This document shows, piece by piece, positions 2,030 through 24,563 of a DNA stretch of 39,436 nt. This DNA comes from Nitratifractor sp. (GTDB taxonomy: Bacteria > Campylobacterota > Campylobacteria > Campylobacterales > Sulfurovaceae). Numbering within the stretch: position 1 is the first letter of the stretch; every line of letters begins with the position of its first letter. The notes beneath the pieces are model-generated. The model did no database searches. It was not told the DNA's origin and worked only from the letters and a program-made list of their open reading frames with translations. Where the stretch lies: positions 1 to 39,436 of the forward strand of contig NZ_WFQN01000030.1 in NCBI RefSeq assembly GCF_015487065.1, in the 5' to 3' direction. The position numbers and the translations under genes were made by a program.

Positions 2030-5000
2030 TTGATCAAAAGTACTAAAATCGTGTCGGCGTTGCTGCTGGGGATATCACTGCTGTGGGGGGCGATGAAGGC
2101 CCCCTCTGAGAGTGAGGGAAAAGAGAGTTCGCTCGAACATGTCGTCTTGCAACTCAACTGGGATTATCGTTTCGAATTTGCCGGCTTTATCGCCGCCAAA
2201 GAGAAGGGCTTTTACCGGGATGCGGGCCTGGATGTGGAACTGAGAACCTTTCGCCCCGGAATGGATGTGGTGCGGGAAGTGACACAGGGAAGGGCCGACT
2301 ACGGTCTCTACAGCTCCAAACTGCTCAAACGTTTTCTCGCCGGAGAACCGGTCAAGCTCCTGGCCAGTTTCTTTAAAAAGCCCTCCATGGTGATCGTCGC
2401 CCGTAAGGGGATCGATAAACCTGAAGATCTTGCCGGCCGTAAAATCCTCTCCGCCTTTTCCCGAAATGACTTCATCCTCAATTTCAAAGAGATGTTTCGG
2501 CAGCATGATGTCAATCTCTCCAAAATAGAGCTCTCAAAAGAGCCTTATTCGATGAAGCCCTTTATCGAAGGGAAGGTTGATGCGATGATCGTCTATCTCC
2601 CCAGCCAGCTCTACCGCCTCAGCAGTCTGGGGATCTCCTACAACATCATCGATCCGGGGAAATACAGTGATCTTTCGCTCCAGCAGGAGCTTTTTACTTC
2701 GCAAACCGTCGCCGAAAAATATCCCGATCGGACGCTGGCTTTTCGTAATGCCAGCATCAAAGGTTGGGACTATGCCCTGCAACATCCCTATGAGATCATC
2801 GATATCATCCGGAAAAAGTATGCTCCGGACCTGACGCTGGAGGAGTTGAGCTACGAATACCGGATCGTCAAACGGCTGATTCAACCGGAACTCTATCCTA
2901 TCGGCTCTATCGATCAGAAACTTTTGCTTTTGCAGATCGAACATCTTCTCGGCAAGCAGAAGCGTGCACAGGCAAAAGAGCTGTTGAAAAAATATATCTT
3001 TGGGGGCGGGGTGGAGATGTCCCCGTTGATCCTGACCAAAGCGGAGCGGGATTTTCTCAAAAAGCATCCGGTGCTCAAAGCGCATAATGAGAGCAACTGG
3101 CCCCCTTTCAATTTCACGGAAAACGGGCAGGCAAAGGGATTTTCGATCGACTATATGAATCTGATCGCCGAGAAGATCGGCGTGAAAGTCCGGTATATCA
3201 GCGGGTATACCTGGTATGAATTTCTGCAAATGATCGATACTGATCGCCTAGATATCATCGACAACATCGCTATCACGCCGGAGCGAAAAAAAACCATCGC
3301 CTTTACCGACCCCTTCATCGATCTGCAGCACGCGATCTACACCAATGTCAACAATCAATCCTACTTCTCTCTTGCCGAACTCAACGGTAAAAGAGTGGCC
3401 CTGGTCAAAGGATTTTTCATCCAGCAATATCTGGCCGAACACTATCCCGGTATCCACCAGGTCCTCGTCCCGGATCAGCTCCAGGCCCTGAAGCTCCTCT
3501 CCTTCGGCAAAGTAGATGCCGTGGTCGGCAAACAGGTGGTAGTGGACTATCTGATGCGTAAATATCTGCTCTCCAACATCATCGCCACCAGTTATGTCAA
3601 AGATCCCGGTGCCGTCAGCCATGTCGCCCTAGGGGTCTCCAAAAAAGACAAAATCCTCGCTCGAATCCTGAAAAAGGCTCAGAAGACCGTTACAGAAGAG
3701 GAGCTACAAAAACTCAAGCACAAATGGTTCGGTATCAACCCGCTACTCAACAGCAAAGAGCTGCTGACCCCGGCAGAGCAGAACTATCTCACCACCCATC
3801 GACTCGCCAAAGTCTGTATCGAAAAAGATCGGGCCCCGATAGAGTTTGTCGAACAGGGCAAAGCGCAGGGTATCGCGGTAGAGATTCTCAGCTCTCTGAC
3901 CCGCAGACTTCATCTCAATCTCAATTTCCGGCCGGTTGCCGACCGAAACGAGGCACTCCATAAGATTCAAACGCGAGAGTGTGATCTCCTTGCCGCCGCA
4001 TCCCGGGACCAACGGAGTGCCAAGCTGCTTGACTTCACCTCTCCTTATCTCGAATATGAAGAGGTATTTATTCGGCATCGCCCGCAGACCGCCTCTGATG
4101 GCGGCAAGCCGTTGATCCTCACCGGAAAACGCCTGGTCGGGAAATGGGGGGATCCGGTCCTTGCCAAGCTGAAGAAGGCACATCCGAGTCTGAAAATCCT
4201 GGAGACCGACAGTTATCTCGATGCCTTGAAAATCCTTCAGCGCGATGCGGCGGATTATGCGGTGATGTCCGAGCCGGTCTACAATTATCTGAGTCAGATT
4301 CATCGGATGAAAGATCTGGAGATGGCCGGCGTCGCTCCCGTCAAAAGCTCTCTGAGTATCGGGGTCAGGAAAGATCAAGTAACGCTCTACCATATCATCA
4401 ACAAAATCCTTCATGCGATGCCGCGGGAGACCTTTTATGCGATCAGTGACAAATGGACCTCGGAGCGAATCCTCAAAGAGATAGACTACAAAAGTATTTT
4501 GGGGATACTTGCCGTAGCACTCCTGGTCATCTCACTGATCACTCTGGCCTACTGGAGACAACGGAAACTCGTCCGCAGGATCAACGAGCTCAACGAAACC
4601 CTGGAAGAACGCATCGAAGAGGCTCTTGAAAAGAACCGTGAGCAGGAGCTCTACATCCTCCAGCAGGATCGCCTGGCCAAAATGGGGGAGATGATCGCCA
4701 TGATCGCCCATCAGTGGCGCCAACCCCTCAACAACCTTTCGATTCTGATCCAACTCCTGGTCTCCCGTTACAAAAAAGGGATCCTCAACGACGATGCTAT
4801 GGCCTATTTCCAGAATCATGCCCAGAAGCAGGTCGAACAGATGTCCACGACCATCGATGATTTCCGCAATTTCTACCGCCCGGAGAAAGAGGCCACTGAG
4901 TTTTGTATCAATGAGAGTATCGACAATGCGATTCAGATGAGCAAAATGGCATTTACAGCTCAGGGAATCAAGATCATTTTCCACTCCGACGGACGCTACG

Positions 5001-5383
5001 TCTACACCGGATACCCCAACGAATTGGCCCACGCCATCCTCAATATCCTCAACAATGCAAGAGATGTATTGGTTGAAAAGGGCGAAAGCCTCCTCGAAAA
5101 GCATATCGTCATCACGCTCGAAGAGCGCGAAGAGGGATTGACGCTGGAGATCTGCGACAATGCGGGAGGAATTCCCGAAGCGATCATCGACAAGATCTTC
5201 GACCCCTACTTCTCGACCAAACAGGACAAAAACGGTACCGGATTGGGACTCTATATGACCAAGGTAATGATTGCGGATCATATGCATTCCCAAATCACCG
5301 TCTCCAATCGCGAAGAGGGCGCCTGTTTTACCATTACATTTTTGGGAGAATATCACCGGGAGAGCGAGTCCGAGGCAGAGTGA
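2030..5383 (+). CDS. Sensor histidine kinase with one NMT1/THI5-like and two SBP_bac_3-like periplasmic domains
   Basis: N-terminal signal, NMT1-like region (LQLNWDYRFEFAGFIAAKEKGFYRDAGLDVEL), two SBP_bac_3-like regions (NWPPFNFTENGQAKGFSIDYMNLIAEKIGV...; RAPIEFVEQGKAQGIAVEILSSL...), TM helix (ILGILAVALLVISLITLAYW), HisKA (MIAHQWRQPLNNLSILIQLL), HATPase (IFDPYFSTKQDKNGTGLGLYMTK). Starts with TTG. Confidence 0.92.
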   Translation: MIKSTKIVSALLLGISLLWGAMKAPSESEGKESSLEHVVLQLNWDYRFEFAGFIAAKEKGFYRDAGLDVELRTFRPGMDVVREVTQGRADYGLYSSKLLKRFLAGEPVKLLASFFKKPSMVIVARKGIDKPEDLAGRKILSAFSRNDFILNFKEMFRQHDVNLSKIELSKEPYSMKPFIEGKVDAMIVYLPSQLYRLSSLGISYNIIDPGKYSDLSLQQELFTSQTVAEKYPDRTLAFRNASIKGWDYALQHPYEIIDIIRKKYAPDLTLEELSYEYRIVKRLIQPELYPIGSIDQKLLLLQIEHLLGKQKRAQAKELLKKYIFGGGVEMSPLILTKAERDFLKKHPVLKAHNESNWPPFNFTENGQAKGFSIDYMNLIAEKIGVKVRYISGYTWYEFLQMIDTDRLDIIDNIAITPERKKTIAFTDPFIDLQHAIYTNVNNQSYFSLAELNGKRVALVKGFFIQQYLAEHYPGIHQVLVPDQLQALKLLSFGKVDAVVGKQVVVDYLMRKYLLSNIIATSYVKDPGAVSHVALGVSKKDKILARILKKAQKTVTEEELQKLKHKWFGINPLLNSKELLTPAEQNYLTTHRLAKVCIEKDRAPIEFVEQGKAQGIAVEILSSLTRRLHLNLNFRPVADRNEALHKIQTRECDLLAAASRDQRSAKLLDFTSPYLEYEEVFIRHRPQTASDGGKPLILTGKRLVGKWGDPVLAKLKKAHPSLKILETDSYLDALKILQRDAADYAVMSEPVYNYLSQIHRMKDLEMAGVAPVKSSLSIGVRKDQVTLYHIINKILHAMPRETFYAISDKWTSERILKEIDYKSILGILAVALLVISLITLAYWRQRKLVRRINELNETLEERIEEALEKNREQELYILQQDRLAKMGEMIAMIAHQWRQPLNNLSILIQLLVSRYKKGILNDDAMAYFQNHAQKQVEQMSTTIDDFRNFYRPEKEATEFCINESIDNAIQMSKMAFTAQGIKIIFHSDGRYVYTGYPNELAHAILNILNNARDVLVEKGESLLEKHIVITLEEREEGLTLEICDNAGGIPEAIIDKIFDPYFSTKQDKNGTGLGLYMTKVMIADHMHSQITVSNREEGACFTITFLGEYHRESESEAE

Positions 5384-14696: not shown

Positions 14697-15017
14697 CTAT
14701 CGCGGCAATAATGAGGGGGAGTTTAACCCATTTTGGGTTTCTGGGAGAGTCCGGTCTCCCGGCGGCGGGGCGATGGTAACGGCCATGCAGGCGGTACATT
14801 CAGGAACGGGGGCCGGGTCGAAAAGTGCGCACCCGCTGACGAGGAGGGTACCGCAGAGCAGGGGAAGGAGCCTCAGATACCTTTTCGTTTTTGATTTTCT
14901 TGAAAAATCTTTGTTATTCCGGGCTTGACTCGGAATCCAGGGCTTTGAATAACCAAGAATCTGAGTCGAGTCCAGGATGACGGAGTCATCGGCATCTGAT
15001 TTTCCAAAATACTCCAT
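14697..15017 (-). CDS. Putative lipoprotein with repeat-encoded N-terminal extension
   Basis: RYLRLLPLLCGTLLVSGCALFDPAPVPECTAC contains a lipobox (LVSGC). The only in-frame ATG/GTG/TTG I found upstream is the ATG overlapping the preceding stop (TAATG); the intervening codons include palindromic repeat copy C. Confidence 0.55.
   Translation of the reverse strand: MEYFGKSDADDSVILDSTQILGYSKPWIPSQARNNKDFSRKSKTKRYLRLLPLLCGTLLVSGCALFDPAPVPECTACMAVTIAPPPGDRTLPETQNGLNSPSLLPR
14913..14983. repeat. Dispersed palindromic repeat, copy C (inside ORF 14697-15017)
   Basis: GTTATTCCGGGCTTGACTCGGAATCCAGGGC...CTGAGTCGAGTCCAGGATGACGG; two hairpins with outer inverted ends. Confidence 0.75.
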
Positions 15018-17827
15018 TATTTTCCTCTCCTGCCATGGGAGCGCCGGGGAGGGCGGCCGGTGCCCCGTTTGCCCTTCTGGTAGCAGCTTTCGCAGATGCT
15101 GAAGCGGTAGCTAAAATCTAGCTCCCGCCCGCAGCGGCGGCACCGCTTGACGAAATCCCCCTTCTGTAGGGAGCTTTCGATGAAGCGGTTGAGACGTTCT
15201 CTGGCGGCGCGGGCCTTTTCCGTATCGGGGAAGAGATCCCGGAACTTGAAAGAGAGCCAGAGATAGAGGGAGACCTCTTTGACCCGGTCTTCGGCGTTGA
15301 GAAGCTCTTCGTTGGTCCAGGCGAACTCCGGCAGCTCCCGGGGCGGGATATAAGGGACCGTTTCACCCCGCTCCAGATGCCCCAGATAGCGGTGAAAGAC
15401 CGATTCGATGTAAGGGGAGCCGATGCTCACCGGCGCACAGGCCAGATGATAGCGGGAGCGCAGATCCAGCGTATACTCGTCCACGATGGCCGCCACCTCC
15501 ATCATCGAGTCGATATTGGCCGCCCTGAAAGGCCCCTCGAACTCCATGTTCTGGGCGAAAAACTCCAGAATCTCCAGGAGCTTGTCGGTCTCGAGGATCT
15601 CCCCGATGAGCAGCACATGATCCAGGCTCGCCATCACGGAGAAGGGGAGGCGGATCTCCGGCAGCGGCGCATGGAAGCGCCGGGCGATGGTCTGGAGCGT
15701 TCCCGCATCCAGGGCTCCCACATAACCGTGTTCGTGGATCCCGTAGCGCCCGGCCCGGCCGGCGATCTGCAGGATCTCCGAAGTGGTGAGCTCCCGGCGG
15801 CGCAGACCGTCGAACTTGTTGTCCTTGGCGAAGAGGATCGTCTGAATCGGGAGATTGAGCCCCATGGCGATGGCGTCGGTGGCCACCAGGATCTGGCTCT
15901 CCCCCTCCCGGAAACGGCGCGCTTCTTCCCGACGTACCTCCGGCGAGAGGTTTCCGTAGACCACCGAGACACTGTAGCGGCCGGAGAGCTGTTGCTTGAG
16001 GGAGAGCACCTCCTTGCGGGAGAAGGCCACGATAGCGGTATTGGGGCGGATCTTGCGGGGCGAGACGGGATGGCTCATCAGCTCCAGAGGGTTTTTGCGT
16101 TCGAAATGGATCACCTCCAGTTCCTCCCCCAGATAGTCACAGACCTCCTGCACGGCGGCCACGGCATTGGCGGAACCGGTGAGGATCACCTCCTTGGCCG
16201 GGGCGCCGATGAGGGCGTTGGCCCACGCCCAGCCACGGTCCCGGTCATCAATCATCTGGATCTCGTCGATGACGCAGCACTCCACCTCCACCTCCATATT
16301 GACCATCTCGATGGTGGAGCTGATATGGGTGGACTCTTCGTCAATGATCTCCTCTTCGCCCGTAATCAGCGATGCCGCGATACCGGAGCGGCGAAGATCC
16401 TCGTACCCCTCCAGGGCCAGGAGCCGCAGGGGCGCCAGGTAGTAGCCGGTCTCGGCCTTTTTGAGCCGCTCCATGGCGGCGTAGGTCTTGCCGCTGTTGG
16501 TGGGGCCGGCGTGGAAGGTAATCCGCCGCTTCAGTCGACGCGCCAAGGGGAAGAGGAGCTTGAAGTCCCGGATGGTTTTTGCCAGGAGCTCTTCGCGCAT
16601 CTTCTTCTCTTTGAGGGGGCGCAAGTACTCCCCGAAGTGGTAGAGGATGCGTCGTTTGGTCTTCTCCTTGATCTTGAGTTTACCCGAGGCGATGAGCTGG
16701 GGTTCGAGAAACTGGAGAATATAGCGCTCCATCGTCGCCGCCTCCACCTCCAGCCCTTCGGCCATCTCTTCCATCCGCTCCCGCAGGGTTTGAAGTGCCA
16801 CGTTGAAATGTTCCAGCGTGTGCTCCTTGAGTGCCGCCAGATCTTCCCTGATCGGCAGCGGCTTGCCGTCCCAGATCGCGGCATAGATGAAGTTGCGCTC
16901 GTAGGAGAGGGAGAGACGGTACCCCACCGTGGTATCGAAAAGCTCCAGCTCCTTCTCCCGCTCCAGGATGAAATGGTCACCACTGAGGATCAGAAAGAGC
17001 TTCGGATCGATGGCATGGACGATCCGTTCGACGACGGCGTAGTCGAGGGGAGTATGGCGCAGATCCCCCTCCATGGGAGTCCGACGCAGGTGGTCGATGA
17101 TCTCCTCTTCGCTCAGATAGCGATGCTCGGAAAGTGTCGAGAGGAAGGTGTCGATCTCCTGCTGACGTTCGGCGATCGCCTTCTCTTTGAGAGAGTGCAG
17201 CGCTTTGAGCGCCGCCTCATCCCCCCGGTTCAGCAGCTCCGCCAGGTCGATCGGCTCGCTGCGTACCAGGAGATGCCGGGTGAAACGGTTGCCGAAAAGT
17301 TTGAAGACAAAAGGATGGACGAACTCCAGGCGGTCATCGGAGCCAATCTCCGCCTCCACAGCTTCCTGCAGACGATCCAGGCGTCGGTGGAGTCGCAGGT
17401 AGGCCAGTTTGTTCAGCAGTTTTTCCCGGGTGATTTTGCCGCTGCGCATCGGCAGAAAATGCTCCAGCAAAGCCTCTTCCTCTTCCCGGCTGCGTTCCGT
17501 CCCCTCCAGCAGTGAGAGGATCCGCTCCACCTTGTCCTGCGCGGCGGCGGCAGCAGGACGCTTGCCTCCGCCTCCCTTTTTGCGCTCCATCAGATAGTCC
17601 ACGATGGTTTTGCGCACTCCATAGTCACCGTCGCTCCAGACCCGTCGCAATGCCCGGATCATCTCTCCGCGATCGGAAGAGGGCAGATCCAGCTGCAGCA
17701 GCATTGTCAGTTCCATCAACAGATCATCATCCAATTGCGTCACCGCCTCGTCAAAGGGGAGACCGCCGAAGAGTTCTTTGATTCGATTGTTGAGTTTGAT
17801 GTAGTGTCGTCGTTTCTTTTTGGCCAT
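15017..17827 (-). CDS. Suv3-like DEAD/DEAH-box RNA helicase with N-terminal extension and C-terminal Cys4 motif
   Basis: FHAGPTNSGKTYAAMERL (Walker A), YYLAPLRLLALEGYE, HISSTIEMVN, CCVIDEIQMIDDRDRGWAWANALIGAPAKEVILTGS, AFSRKEVLSLKQQL, VVYGNLSPEVRREEARRFREGESQILVATDAIAMGLNLPIQTILF, LQIAGRAGRYG; C-term CRRCGRELDFSYRFSICESC. Confidence 0.88.
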   Translation of the reverse strand: MAKKKRRHYIKLNNRIKELFGGLPFDEAVTQLDDDLLMELTMLLQLDLPSSDRGEMIRALRRVWSDGDYGVRKTIVDYLMERKKGGGGKRPAAAAAQDKVERILSLLEGTERSREEEEALLEHFLPMRSGKITREKLLNKLAYLRLHRRLDRLQEAVEAEIGSDDRLEFVHPFVFKLFGNRFTRHLLVRSEPIDLAELLNRGDEAALKALHSLKEKAIAERQQEIDTFLSTLSEHRYLSEEEIIDHLRRTPMEGDLRHTPLDYAVVERIVHAIDPKLFLILSGDHFILEREKELELFDTTVGYRLSLSYERNFIYAAIWDGKPLPIREDLAALKEHTLEHFNVALQTLRERMEEMAEGLEVEAATMERYILQFLEPQLIASGKLKIKEKTKRRILYHFGEYLRPLKEKKMREELLAKTIRDFKLLFPLARRLKRRITFHAGPTNSGKTYAAMERLKKAETGYYLAPLRLLALEGYEDLRRSGIAASLITGEEEIIDEESTHISSTIEMVNMEVEVECCVIDEIQMIDDRDRGWAWANALIGAPAKEVILTGSANAVAAVQEVCDYLGEELEVIHFERKNPLELMSHPVSPRKIRPNTAIVAFSRKEVLSLKQQLSGRYSVSVVYGNLSPEVRREEARRFREGESQILVATDAIAMGLNLPIQTILFAKDNKFDGLRRRELTTSEILQIAGRAGRYGIHEHGYVGALDAGTLQTIARRFHAPLPEIRLPFSVMASLDHVLLIGEILETDKLLEILEFFAQNMEFEGPFRAANIDSMMEVAAIVDEYTLDLRSRYHLACAPVSIGSPYIESVFHRYLGHLERGETVPYIPPRELPEFAWTNEELLNAEDRVKEVSLYLWLSFKFRDLFPDTEKARAARERLNRFIESSLQKGDFVKRCRRCGRELDFSYRFSICESCYQKGKRGTGRPPRRSHGRRGK

Positions 17828-18094: not shown

Positions 18095-19690
18095 ATGAGT
18101 TACGGATTACGAATCAGCGGTTTTTTCCTTTTGACATTCTGTTTTTCGTACGGGGTCACCCCTGCGATGCTTCATTCTACCCCGGAGACTCTTTCGGTTC
18201 ATATGACCAAAAAGATGACCATGATTATTGAAGAGCCTGTCAGCAAATCTTCGCCTCTCTCCTTATTGAAGGACCGAGGGGAGGATTTTGATTCGGAAAC
18301 GCTGCCGCCGCAAAATCCTTTTGCCATACATTGTGATGAGAATCAAAGCGTACAGGAGCATGTCAAAACTGTCGAAAAGCCTCAGGCCAAAGAGCTCTAT
18401 CTCACCTTTGATGACGGTCCGCTCAAGGGGACGGGAAATGTCTTGAAAATCCTGAAAGAGGAGGGGGTTCCCGCGACAATGTTTTGCGTCGGTCGGCATG
18501 CCCGGTTGCATCCCGCACTCTTCCGTCAGGAGCTTGCGATGCCCAATCTTCTGATCGCCAACCATACCTTTTCTCATGCCAACGGACACTACAGCCGCTA
18601 TTACAGTGATACCTTCGGCCTCCTGAGCGATGTGGAACATGCCCAAATCATTCTCGGCGGTCGGAAATATCTTCGTCTGGCCGGACGCAATGTCTGGCGT
18701 TTGCCGGAAGTCGCACGGAACGACCGGGCGATTATGGCCCTCCGTGGACCTCGGGAAGTGCCGAAATACGATGCCCTTGCCCGGGAAGGCTACTTCATCT
18801 ACGGATGGGATGTGGAGTGGCACTTCAATCACCGTAACGATCATCCTGTCGAGAGCCCGGAATCCCTCGCGGCCTGCATCGACAGACTCTACCGTCACGG
18901 CCGTCTCGCCCGACAGGGCAAAGTTGTGCTGCTCGCCCATGACTTTATGTTCCGTAGCCGTCAAACGGCAGATGAACTCCGCCGTTTTATCCGTTTGATG
19001 AAAGCAAGAGGTTGGCATTTCAAAACGATCAACCGTTACAGCCGGCTGCGCCCCGAGCCGCTCTATGTCGCCAAATATTACGGGAAGGATAGGAAAACTT
19101 TCGCCGCCGCCTCCAATGAGCAGCCGCTTCGCCCAAAGAGCCGTGTCTTACCCCATGCCGTCTCCGCCGATACCCCTTCAAAGGTGACAGCGGTTTCCGC
19201 CTCGGTCGCCGACCGGAAGGAAAAATTAAATTTCGGCACCCATCCTTCGCAGCGGAGAACGCCCACACAGGATCCCCGCTCCCGGCAAAGCCTCCTGACG
19301 AATGCTATCCGACACTACGATGCTGCCAAAGTGGACCGTTTGCTTCGCCGGGGTGTCTCAATCAACCAGCCGGATCCCTTCGGCCATACCGCACTCAACA
19401 CCGCCGTACGAGCCAACAGTCTGCTCCTGGTCAAGAAACTTCTGGCCAACGGTGCTAGTCTCAATCAAAAAGATGCTTCGGGAAGCAATGCGCTTCAGAC
19501 CGCCCGGCGTTTCAAACGCCGGGCTATCGAAAACTATCTGCTCCATTTCGCCCAAAAACAGACGACTCCGCTTCCATTGAGCCGAAGGAGCCAAGCTCTT
19601 AACACTCCTCCCATTGCCGTCATCCAACCTAAACGGATAAATCCGCTCAAAATGTTGAATCAAGCGGGCGGATCAACTCCCTGGAATTGA
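18095..19690 (+). CDS. Polysaccharide deacetylase (NodB-like) with C-terminal ankyrin repeats
   Basis: ELYLTFDDGPLKGTGNVLKILKEEGVPATMFCVGRHA, NHTFSHANGHY, YFIYGWDVEWHF, VVLLAHDFMFR; then LLTNAIRHYDAAKVDRLLRRGVSINQPDPFGHTALNTAVRANSLLLVKKLLANGASLNQKDASGSNALQTA. Confidence 0.88.
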   Translation: MSYGLRISGFFLLTFCFSYGVTPAMLHSTPETLSVHMTKKMTMIIEEPVSKSSPLSLLKDRGEDFDSETLPPQNPFAIHCDENQSVQEHVKTVEKPQAKELYLTFDDGPLKGTGNVLKILKEEGVPATMFCVGRHARLHPALFRQELAMPNLLIANHTFSHANGHYSRYYSDTFGLLSDVEHAQIILGGRKYLRLAGRNVWRLPEVARNDRAIMALRGPREVPKYDALAREGYFIYGWDVEWHFNHRNDHPVESPESLAACIDRLYRHGRLARQGKVVLLAHDFMFRSRQTADELRRFIRLMKARGWHFKTINRYSRLRPEPLYVAKYYGKDRKTFAAASNEQPLRPKSRVLPHAVSADTPSKVTAVSASVADRKEKLNFGTHPSQRRTPTQDPRSRQSLLTNAIRHYDAAKVDRLLRRGVSINQPDPFGHTALNTAVRANSLLLVKKLLANGASLNQKDASGSNALQTARRFKRRAIENYLLHFAQKQTTPLPLSRRSQALNTPPIAVIQPKRINPLKMLNQAGGSTPWN

Positions 19691-20726: not shown

Positions 20727-23700
20727 ATGAAACATCTTGTAACCTGCTATCGCGACCCTGAAGCGTGGAACAGCCTCTGCTCCCGGGAAGGGATCGTCGA
20801 CTCTCCCTCCCTGTTGATTCAGGCCTTTTGCGGTGATCCCGATCCCCTGAAACTCGATGTCCTGCGAAAAGATTTGGCCCGGTATTTCCCTCAGGCAGTG
20901 ATTCTCGGGACCAGTACCGACGGCGGAATCTGCGGAAGCGAAGTGATCCTGGATCAAAACGTATTGAGCTTTACGCTTTTTGAAAAGACCTCTCTCCGGA
21001 GTCACCTTATCGAAGAGATAGAAGAGTTTGAAACGGCGGGCAGAGCCGTAGCCCAAAGCCTGATCGACAATGAGACCCGGGTGATTATCGCTTTTATCGA
21101 CGGGTTGGAAGGCGACGGAGACGCCTTTGTTCAGGGAATCGCTTCCGTAGATGAAGCCGTGCATGTCGCCGGCGGTTTGTCGGGCGATTCCGCCCGCTTC
21201 GAGGGGACCTATGTTTTCGATAGGAATCGTGTGGTACGCGGAGGCGCCGTCGCCGTGGCGCTCAGCTCTCCGTCATTGACGGTGACGAACCGCTACAGTT
21301 TCAACTGGAACCCTATCGGTCGACGCCTACGGATCACCTCGGCGGAAGGCAATGTGGTTCATACTATCGACGATCGGCCTGCCCGGGAGATCTACGCCTA
21401 TTATCTGGGGGAGGAGGTCGCCCGGAGACTTCCGGAGACGGGAATCGAATTTCCTCTGATTATGGAACGGGAGGGACAGACGATCGCCCGAGCGGTGATC
21501 AATACGCTTCAGGACGGTTCCCTGGTTTTCGCCGGGAAGTTTCGTGAGGGGGATGAAGTGCAGTTCGGCTACGGCAATGCCGAGCTGATCCTGGATGCGG
21601 CTCCTGAACTGGCCCTGGATCTGGCCCGCCAGCCCGTTGAGGCGATCTATATCTACTCCTGTATGGCAAGACGCCGTTTCATGCCCGATACAATCGGCAA
21701 AGAGATCGAACCCTTTGCCATGTTGGCTCCCACGGCCGGTTTTTTTACCTACGGTGAGTTCTACGGTCAGCATCTGCTCAATGAAACCATGACGATTCTT
21801 GCGCTGGGGGAGGGCGGTGATGCTCTTCCGCCGACGAGATCTCTGCCGAAGGAGTTGTCCAGACGGGATCAGCCGTTGCGTTGGACGTTTAGAGCCTTTT
21901 CCCATCTGATCGATGTCTCCACTCGGGAGCTCAATCGACAAAAAGAGGAGTTCCGGACTATTTTTGAACAGAGCAAGGGGGCCATAGCCATTATTGATCC
22001 GGCGGAGGGGCGTTTCCTTCAAGTCAATCCGGCCTATTGCGAGATGACGGGTTATAGCCGCGAAGAGCTTCTCGGACTACACTGTTCCGACTTGACCCGG
22101 GCGGAATATCTCGAAGCTTCCCGGCAGGCCATCTCGAAGGTTTTGGAGCGCGGACATCTGAAAAACTACACCAAAGAGTGCCGACGCAAAGACGGAGAAT
22201 TCATTACCGTCACGCTCTCCATGTCGCTGCTGGAAGATCCCCGGAGAATTCTCATCAACGTGCAGGATGTTACCCAATGGCTTCGCAATCAGCAGGCCCT
22301 CGAAGCGGCCAAACGCAAAGCCGAAGAGGCAACACGGCTCAAGAGTGCCTTCTTGGCCAATATGAGCCATGAGATCCGGACGCCGATGAACGGTATCATG
22401 GGGATGGCTCATCTATTGACCCAATCCGAGCTCAACCCTTCTCAGAAGGAGTATGTCCAGATCATTGAAAACAGCGCCAAGAATCTCCTGGAGATCATCA
22501 ACGATATTTTGGACTTTTCCAAGGTCGAAGCGGGAAAATTGAAACTGGAAGAGGTGGAGTTTGATCTCTTTGAAACGGTCGAAGAGGTTTTGGCGGTTAG
22601 TGAGCCGAGGATCCGGGAAAAGGGCCTGGAGTTGACAGTCCATTACGATTTGGAATTGGGCAAACGCTTTTTGGGTGATCGACTGCGCATCGCCCAGGTT
22701 CTCACCAATCTGCTAAGCAATGCCGTGAAGTTTACCGAACGCGGAGAGATCGCCCTGGATATCGAACGCCGAGGAGCCAACAGGGTCCGTTTTGAAGTGC
22801 ACGATACCGGAATCGGTATGTCTCCGGAGGTGCTTGCCCGGCTTTTTCGGCCCTTTACCCAGGCCGATGTCAGTACGACACGTCGCTACGGAGGGACGGG
22901 ACTGGGACTCTCCATCTCCAAACAGTTGGTGGAGATGATGGGCGGAAAGATCGAAGTGGAGAGTACGCCGGGGGAGGGGAGCACTTTCCGTTTCGAATTG
23001 CCGTTGCAGGAACTCGACCCCCAGGATCGGCACTACAATCTCTTTAGCGGACGACATGTTATGTTGGTAGAGGGAAATGAAGCCTGGCGTGAGATCCTGG
23101 GAGAGATCTTGCGCTCCTTTGATCTGACGGTTGCCTATGCTTACAGCGCTCAAGATGCCTTGGAGAAAGTAGGGCAATGTCGGGAAGACCTTTTCTATGA
23201 TCTGATCCTCATGGATCAAAATCTTCCCGATATCGACGGATTCCTCCTCCTCGAAAAATTTCGCGGTCTTTGCCCCGATGATTCGCTCCTTCCGCCGATC
23301 ATCATGCTCAGCAGTGACCGCCAGGTCCTACTCTCGCCGAAAGTACATGAATCGGGCGCTGAGTATTGCCTCCACAAGCCGGTCAACCCCTCCATCCTCA
23401 ACAATGTGCTCAGCGATCTCTTTTTGGGAACCGATATGATGGGCGAGCAGGCACATCTCGGAGCCCGAGAGAGACGTCTCGGAAAATTCCGACATCTCAA
23501 AGGCCGAATTCTGTTGGTGGAAGATAATCAAACCAATCAGATCATTATCAAAAATCTGCTCAATGCCTATCCGGAGCTACGACTTGAAATCGCACTCCAT
23601 GGCCGGGAGGCGGTCACAATGGTCCATCGCCATCCGGGACGCTACGATTTGATTCTGATGGATATTCAGATGCCGGTGATGGATGGTTACGAAGCGACGC

Positions 23701-24563
23701 GTCGGATCCGCCTGGAAGACCCCAGTGTCCCCATCGTCGCGCTGACGGCCAACGCCCTTCGTGAAAATATAGAAATGACCCGTCGAAGCGGTATGAATGA
23801 TCATCTCAACAAACCGATCGATGTGGAAAAATTCTACGCGGTGATCCATCGCTATCTTGGAACGATGGAAAACGGAGAGACGCTTTCTCCGGGGGGAAGG
23901 GGGCTTCCGGAAGATGAGAGTATTCCTCTGCCTCACTTTCAAAGTATTGACACGGCAAAAGGGCTGCCGCATTTCGGCGGCAACCGACGCCTCTATCGCA
24001 AAATACTCGAACAGTTTCTCAAAAACTATCGAACCGTTGATTGGGAAAACCTTTCAACCGAGGAGATAGAACGCACGGCACATACCCTCAAAGGGCTTAG
24101 CGCCAATATCGGAGCAATGACGTTGAACCGCTACGCTGAAGATTTGGAAAAAGTCCCCGCAGATCACCAGATCAGGAGACGAGTCGATCAAGAGTTGAAA
24201 GCGGTATTGGAAGAGCTTGAACAGGGCTTGCAGTCCGTTGAAAAAAGTGAAAAAGAGACAACGGATAGCGAAAAGTGTGACAGCATCGCCCAAGATGACT
24301 CACCACGGCGCAAACCCAAAATACTTCCCGGACGCAAAAAAGAACTTTTCACACTGCTGAGCCGATACGCGGCCAGGCGACGTTCGCGTCAATGCCGACA
24401 GATTCTTCAGGAGTTTCAAGAGTATCGGCTCAATTCGAGAGATTCGGAATTGATTGATCGACTGGTAAGATTGGTTGAACAACGGGATTATGATGAAATC
24501 GTCAAATTGGTTGAGAGTGCGTTCAAGTCCTCAGCTCAGAGTAATGAGCAGCGTGAGGGATAG
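20727..24563 (+). CDS. FIST-PAS-histidine kinase-REC-REC-HPt hybrid sensor protein
   Basis: FIST N/C region (VILGTSTDGGICG..., VHVAGGLSGDSARFEGTYVF), PAS (IFEQSKGAIAIIDPAEGRFLQVNPAYCEMTGYS), HisKA (FLANMSHEIRTPMNGIMGMAHLL), HATPase (GTGLGLSISKQLVEMMGG), two REC domains (LILMDQNLPDIDG; LILMDIQMPVMDG), HPt (AHTLKGLSANIGA). Confidence 0.93.
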   Translation: MKHLVTCYRDPEAWNSLCSREGIVDSPSLLIQAFCGDPDPLKLDVLRKDLARYFPQAVILGTSTDGGICGSEVILDQNVLSFTLFEKTSLRSHLIEEIEEFETAGRAVAQSLIDNETRVIIAFIDGLEGDGDAFVQGIASVDEAVHVAGGLSGDSARFEGTYVFDRNRVVRGGAVAVALSSPSLTVTNRYSFNWNPIGRRLRITSAEGNVVHTIDDRPAREIYAYYLGEEVARRLPETGIEFPLIMEREGQTIARAVINTLQDGSLVFAGKFREGDEVQFGYGNAELILDAAPELALDLARQPVEAIYIYSCMARRRFMPDTIGKEIEPFAMLAPTAGFFTYGEFYGQHLLNETMTILALGEGGDALPPTRSLPKELSRRDQPLRWTFRAFSHLIDVSTRELNRQKEEFRTIFEQSKGAIAIIDPAEGRFLQVNPAYCEMTGYSREELLGLHCSDLTRAEYLEASRQAISKVLERGHLKNYTKECRRKDGEFITVTLSMSLLEDPRRILINVQDVTQWLRNQQALEAAKRKAEEATRLKSAFLANMSHEIRTPMNGIMGMAHLLTQSELNPSQKEYVQIIENSAKNLLEIINDILDFSKVEAGKLKLEEVEFDLFETVEEVLAVSEPRIREKGLELTVHYDLELGKRFLGDRLRIAQVLTNLLSNAVKFTERGEIALDIERRGANRVRFEVHDTGIGMSPEVLARLFRPFTQADVSTTRRYGGTGLGLSISKQLVEMMGGKIEVESTPGEGSTFRFELPLQELDPQDRHYNLFSGRHVMLVEGNEAWREILGEILRSFDLTVAYAYSAQDALEKVGQCREDLFYDLILMDQNLPDIDGFLLLEKFRGLCPDDSLLPPIIMLSSDRQVLLSPKVHESGAEYCLHKPVNPSILNNVLSDLFLGTDMMGEQAHLGARERRLGKFRHLKGRILLVEDNQTNQIIIKNLLNAYPELRLEIALHGREAVTMVHRHPGRYDLILMDIQMPVMDGYEATRRIRLEDPSVPIVALTANALRENIEMTRRSGMNDHLNKPIDVEKFYAVIHRYLGTMENGETLSPGGRGLPEDESIPLPHFQSIDTAKGLPHFGGNRRLYRKILEQFLKNYRTVDWENLSTEEIERTAHTLKGLSANIGAMTLNRYAEDLEKVPADHQIRRRVDQELKAVLEELEQGLQSVEKSEKETTDSEKCDSIAQDDSPRRKPKILPGRKKELFTLLSRYAARRRSRQCRQILQEFQEYRLNSRDSELIDRLVRLVEQRDYDEIVKLVESAFKSSAQSNEQREG

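Follow-up and report, generated by a model that had tools for sequence, protein, structure and literature searches.

A Suv3-family helicase gene in a Nitratifractor contig

The window is a 39,436-nucleotide stretch corresponding to contig C30 of a draft Nitratifractor genome (1.86 Mb, 88.6% complete). On its reverse strand it carries a gene for a 936-residue, ATP-dependent helicase of the Suv3 family (Table 1). The reading frame extends from ATG to TAA, is intact and free of internal stops, and is present in a single copy in the source genome. Its start codon is backed by an MAKKKK beginning that is conserved among orthologues. The closest relative shares 96% identity along the entire protein, and the named relatives are from metagenome-assembled genomes (Campylobacteraceae, Nitratifractor).

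A 106-residue open reading frame with a lipoprotein-like signal (LLVSGCALF; 14697-15017, reverse strand) begins at the last base of the helicase stop codon, and this TAATG overlap suggests translational coupling of the two genes. Pfam gives no match for the small frame, and related loci lack a similar gene beside the helicase. Divergently oriented beside the helicase gene is a polysaccharide deacetylase domain fused to C-terminal ankyrin repeats (18095-19690, forward strand), whose position is conserved in the closest relatives (L002, L003 and L101). Two large kinases are also encoded on the forward strand of the window. A 1278-residue hybrid sensor kinase (20727-24563), directly preceded by a response regulator-GGDEF gene, combines a FIST_N/FIST_C sensor with PAS, HisKA, HATPase, two receiver and Hpt domains. 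A 1117-residue histidine kinase (2030-5383) carries an NMT1/THI5-like and two SBP_bac_3 domains, which are its likely sensors.

Table 1. Features of the helicase gene, with positions in the window.
Feature	Residues	Position	Strand	Basis or remark
Suv3-family ATP-dependent helicase, long form	936 aa	15017..17827	-	
N-terminal region	1-425	16553..17827	-	Predicted folded; kept in families f1, f4 and f16
Basic MAKKKRRHYIK start and helical subdomain	1-85	17573..17827	-	
Two successive helix/beta-hairpin/long-helix units	99-362	16742..17533	-	
Suv3-specific stretch IRDFKLLFPLARRLKR, before RecA1	419-434	16526..16573	-	Aligns with the Dss1-touching part of yeast Suv3
RecA1 (DEXQc_Suv3)	426-574	16106..16552	-	Pfam
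RecA2 (Helicase_C)	595-696	15740..16045	-	Pfam
Suv3 C-terminal region	777-889	15161..15499	-	Pfam (Suv3_C_1 and SUV3_C)
CxxC-x12-CxxC, presumed zinc-binding	C896, C899, C912, C915	15083..15142	-	Sequence pattern
Basic C-terminal tail, predicted disordered		15020..15082	-	AlphaFold

The motor is a genuine Suv3 helicase

A sequence-only reading of this DNA had assigned the motor, by its motifs, to the Suv3 type rather than to RecQ or DEAD-box helicases. That call was right, since Pfam, PDB sequence and fold matches all agree. Specifically, the DEXQc_Suv3 model (PF22527) matches at 6e-57 with 192 bits against a cut-off of 27 bits, and SUV3_C (PF12513) matches residues 842-889 at 2.2e-13 with 50.3 bits, also against a cut-off of 27. 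Suv3_C_1 (PF18147) reaches 21.8 bits, slightly below its cut-off of 22.5. The proposed search with SUV3 domain models succeeded for the C-terminal part of the protein and failed for the N-terminal part, where no Suv3 N-terminal Pfam model indicative of a mitochondrial-type domain was found up to an E-value of 1. Helicase_C is also matched, and no other helicase family matches strongly; the Pfam DEAD model scores 26.2 bits on this protein, compared with 192 for Suv3. RecQ and DEAD-box profiles of NCBIfam reach at most 26 bits, far under their cut-offs, and neither is the best match. No NCBIfam equivalog is available for the helicase, and all of its matches in that collection are sub-threshold.

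Human and yeast Suv3 are the top matches by both sequence and fold. The best PDB sequence matches, human SUPV3L1 (4e-77) and yeast Suv3 of mtEXO (6e-74), cover residues 425-887 only. The AlphaFold model finds 3rc3 as its best fold match (E-value 3.1e-39, TM-score 0.77 on the target). Mitochondrial Suv3 or SUPV3L1 (PDB 3RC3, 3RC8, 6F4A and 7W1R) likewise contains RecA1 with DEIQ, RecA2 and the Suv3 C-terminal region, and about 460 residues align (fold E-value 3e-39). In contrast, its own N-terminal domain is shorter and different, and the match ends ahead of the C-terminal cysteines.

The motifs quoted in the sequence-only reading all lie in this reading frame: GPTNSGKTY (residues 441-449), DEIQMIDDRDRGWAWANALIG (521-541), VVYGNLSPEVRREEA (622-636), ATDAIAMGLNLPI (649-661) and QIAGRAGRYG (687-696). 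In an alignment of 56 orthologues these motif columns are largely invariant or nearly so. The catalytic residues of the motor are invariant throughout, including D521, E522 and Q524 of motif II (DEXQ).

Distribution and descent of Campylobacterota Suv3

Among 298 genomes sampled across Campylobacterota, 70 encode a protein that matches PF22527 above its cut-off. A long form of about 930 residues is found in families f1, f4 and f16, and a short form, encoded by open frames of roughly 520-600 codons, occurs in f8 and f6; the remaining families yielded no match to this model. In the short form the motor, about 52% identical to the one here, starts some 20-40 residues past a plausible start. Both the N-terminal region and the four C-terminal cysteines are missing, but a basic tail is retained. 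In one genome of the same family as the source (G013, 100% complete) Suv3 went undetected, which looks like an isolated loss.

We built a tree on the motor from Suv3 proteins and an outgroup. The outgroup is formed by large helicases of Sinorhizobium and Indioceanicola that we take to be of the MgpS type. These alphaproteobacterial proteins of about 1,020-1,100 residues carry the motor at the N-terminus, are 36-37% identical to the motor here over about 260 residues, and form a deep branch. The helicase groups with Suv3 and away from this outgroup; the other SF2 families, outside the tree, score far lower by profile and fold. Campylobacterota Suv3 proteins form one clade (support 100/100), inside which the short forms are again one clade (100/100). 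Support for joining the long forms is modest (65/42), and rises to 86/71 when two divergent rows are dropped. Mitochondrial Suv3 falls outside this clade; a tree forced to unite the two is worse by 31 log-likelihood units (p-AU 0.0006), which rejects a sister relation between them. Eukaryotic sequences place near Firmicutes, but on long branches, and this placement is not to be trusted. The helicase is a chromosomal, vertically inherited Campylobacterota Suv3 of the long form.

Related genes span Alpha-, Beta- and Gammaproteobacteria, Firmicutes and phages. Using tblastn, we found Suv3 genes on plasmids of Azospirillum, Methylobacterium, Rhizobium, Vitreoscilla, Ideonella, Pseudomonas, Butyrivibrio, Lachnospira, Priestia and Pontibacillus. 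Others are in a Salicola phage and three viral contigs, and Caulobacter is among the control genomes with a PF22527 match. A Suv3 in a bacterium is not a novelty: in addition to the 70 carriers in this phylum, Suv3-like helicases of bacteria were already known from 1999 work on Rhodobacter, as it is cited in PMC10253155, and purple bacteria are mentioned as carriers in PMC5818665.

The relatives in phages and viral contigs, together with a weak similarity to the HamB helicases of PADLOC (4e-10), might suggest that the helicase belongs to an anti-phage defence system. We rejected this idea, which we regard as very improbable: the HamB matches, restricted to the RecA2 motif region, are far weaker than the match to Suv3, the neighbouring genes are housekeeping genes (trpB-, lpxB-, aroA- and fbp-like), and the helicase is inherited across whole families as a single copy per genome.

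A C-terminal Cys4 module shared with other bacterial Suv3 proteins

The C-terminal pair of CxxC motifs and the basic tail noted earlier are present. The exact CxxC-x12-CxxC spacing is invariant in 56 of 56 long orthologues, so the four cysteines are not there by chance, and their pattern suggests a putative zinc-binding site. Residues 891-936 carry a net charge of +11, and model confidence falls below a pLDDT of 50 from residue 921 onward.

The Cys4 element had been viewed as an extra of this protein; instead, it is widespread among Suv3 proteins from bacteria and from some viruses. The motors of proteins annotated as 'helicase-related protein' in Azospirillum, Butyrivibrio, Lachnospira, Priestia and Methylobacterium are 39-46% identical to the motor here, and several of these proteins have the same cysteine spacing. 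The same 16-residue-spaced Cys4 ends proteins of Azospirillum (two), Butyrivibrio, Lachnospira and Priestia, and it recurs in the Suv3-like protein of a viral contig. The latter, from IMG/VR (L117:2725-4467, forward strand), is a helicase of 580 residues with CxxC-x12-CxxC at its C-terminus. Cys4 is missing in the Suv3 proteins of Vitreoscilla, Ideonella, Rhizobium, Methylobacterium, Pseudomonas and Pontibacillus, and in 13 of 13 short-form Campylobacterota proteins examined. Matches to the human and yeast chains stop just ahead of its position. The simplest reading of these sequences is that Cys4 would be an old module of bacterial Suv3 that has been lost several times.

A conserved N-terminal region specific to the long form

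About 425 residues precede the motor, and the earlier observation that no recognised family covers this segment is borne out by Pfam, PDB sequence and PDB fold searches. None of the Pfam families matches residues 1-425 consistently in a scan of 31 members. Likewise, no match to this segment was obtained in a PDB profile search, in plasmid and phage searches or in PHROG. Structure prediction, which had been proposed as a check, gives a confident fold with no PDB relative (mean pLDDT 90.7; AlphaFold, 31 relatives). The best PDB fold match of this model has a meaningless E-value of 0.32, Suv3 structures are absent from its best 50 PDB fold matches, and the best hit in a viral structure search is equally meaningless (E-value 0.01, TM-score 0.11).

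In the predicted layout, the helical start is followed by a linker (residues 86-98), the two units and long helices that lead into the motor. The pTM of the full-length model is 0.54, and hence the packing of the N-terminal region on the motor cannot be read from it. Conservation is lower than in the motor. The best-conserved residues are N13, F20, F25, L37, R61, W64, S65 and R72; R61, W64, S65 and R72 are invariant and fall in the first subdomain. The region is mildly acidic (net charge -3; family mean -7) and for this reason is no obvious RNA binder.

The predicted elements of residues 99-236 and 237-362 occur in the same order (hhalign P 0.004), but a possible internal duplication is only suggestive, as 4 of 150 block-shuffled controls score equally high. 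A partial repeat of another kind was seen in one genome (G043 C2:153127-153237), where a second match to helicase residues 1-37 lies some 1 kb upstream of the complete gene and may reflect a partial duplication of its start.

The N-terminal region was detected in 49 of the 298 genomes, all from f1, f4 or f16, always in frame with a Suv3 motor and never alone. N-terminal regions of the other bacterial Suv3 proteins differ in length and have no detectable similarity to it. Kinship with the N-terminus of Butyrivibrio Suv3 was considered and rejected, the alignment from residue 276 being not significant alone, as was kinship with those of other bacterial Suv3 proteins (profile E-values of at least 0.06). 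This conserved and undescribed N-terminal region, which the modelling indicates is probably folded, is what is new here; the motor, bacterial Suv3 and Cys4 are already known or old.

A possible role in RNA decay or ribosome maturation

Mitochondrial Suv3 unwinds RNA in the 3'-5' direction and passes it to Dss1 or PNPase (PMC5758563, PMC5818665, PMC10253155). We propose, with a probability of about 0.5, that the Nitratifractor helicase would provide ATP-driven 3'-5' RNA unwinding for an exoribonuclease or for ribosome maturation, and that its N-terminal region would serve for docking. Like its mitochondrial counterpart, the motor would consume ATP, move 3' to 5' on single-stranded RNA and open structure, while Cys4 and the basic tails of both ends would help hold the RNA. 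The likeliest partner to dock on the N-terminal region would be a 3'-5' exoribonuclease (PNPase or an RNase R-like RNB protein) or else a ribosomal particle, and unwinding would thereby be coupled to RNA decay or rRNA maturation. Help to an exoribonuclease is the leading candidate, and ribosome maturation its main rival.

In yeast, Dss1 docks chiefly on a Suv3-specific helix just before the first RecA1 strand (PMC5758563). In the corresponding LFPLAR-x-L-x-R stretch, L425, A429, R430 and R434 are invariant in long forms, and the stretch is also kept in short forms. By our own count of the chain numbering, the yeast contacts K197 and R199 fall on residue 431, which is variable, and residue 433, which is mostly basic but not conserved. 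Furthermore, yeast docking depends on an HTH domain special to Dss1, which counts against the analogy, and the absence of both the N-terminal region and Cys4 from f8 and f6 counts against the proposed role.

The source genome encodes a PNPase above cut-off and an RNB-family exoribonuclease that is under the RNase R cut-off. Ribonuclease co-occurrence was discarded as partner evidence: RNB proteins are found in all 298 genomes, with or without Suv3, and so give no backing for a specific partner. No gene-neighbourhood link of the helicase to any ribonuclease was found, and the candidate partner genes are not neighbours. A conserved neighbourhood connected with RNA decay was likewise rejected, each subgroup having its own context. 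By gene names read by eye, the short forms sit between a trmA-like gene, flagellins and glmU/coaBC-like genes, and f16 and f1 are located elsewhere.

Alternatively, the helicase might serve chiefly to assemble ribosomes or to adapt the cell to cold; it would then occupy the niche of additional DEAD-box helicases, and its N-terminal region would bind pre-ribosomes. We hold this to be possible, though clearly less probable. It is consistent with the conserved basic MAKKKK start and with the presence of Suv3 in some families of the phylum and not in others, but no direct neighbourhood link to ribosomal genes is seen. DEAD-box numbers also differ in the class: several are usual in free-living Epsilonproteobacteria, as against one in Helicobacter and none in most Campylobacter (PMC5874925). 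Because the survey was based on the COG0513 profile for DEAD-box proteins, it would not have counted Suv3. Somewhat more doubtful is a specific version of the proposal, in which the N-terminal region would be a new fold linking the mitochondria-like motor to a complex for RNA decay or ribosome assembly that is specific to Campylobacterota and builds on the RNase E-less (RNase J-based) decay apparatus of the class.

Suv3 proteins can unwind DNA and DNA-RNA hybrids in vitro. Rice SUV3 is described as binding DNA as well as RNA (PMC4207899). A substrate of this kind, as in R-loop removal or repair, is unlikely for the present helicase, because those close relatives of its motor whose cellular role is known serve RNA turnover and a separate UvrD-type DNA helicase is encoded in the window. 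ATP-driven RNA unwinding for an exoribonuclease or ribosome maturation is the reading that we prefer.

Implications

To our knowledge, Suv3 research is almost confined to mitochondria. Our searches turned up no Sulfurimonas paper dealing with Suv3, a single mention of Suv3 together with Campylobacter, in a PNPase review, and no assigned role for bacterial Suv3 relatives in the searchable literature. The helicase is absent from the published picture of RNA metabolism in the class, which relied on COG0513 only. The invariant Cys4 and the R61/W64/S65/R72 patch are direct targets for mutagenesis, and a bacterial Suv3 that is conserved and carries a dedicated additional region could reveal the job of this enzyme outside organelles.
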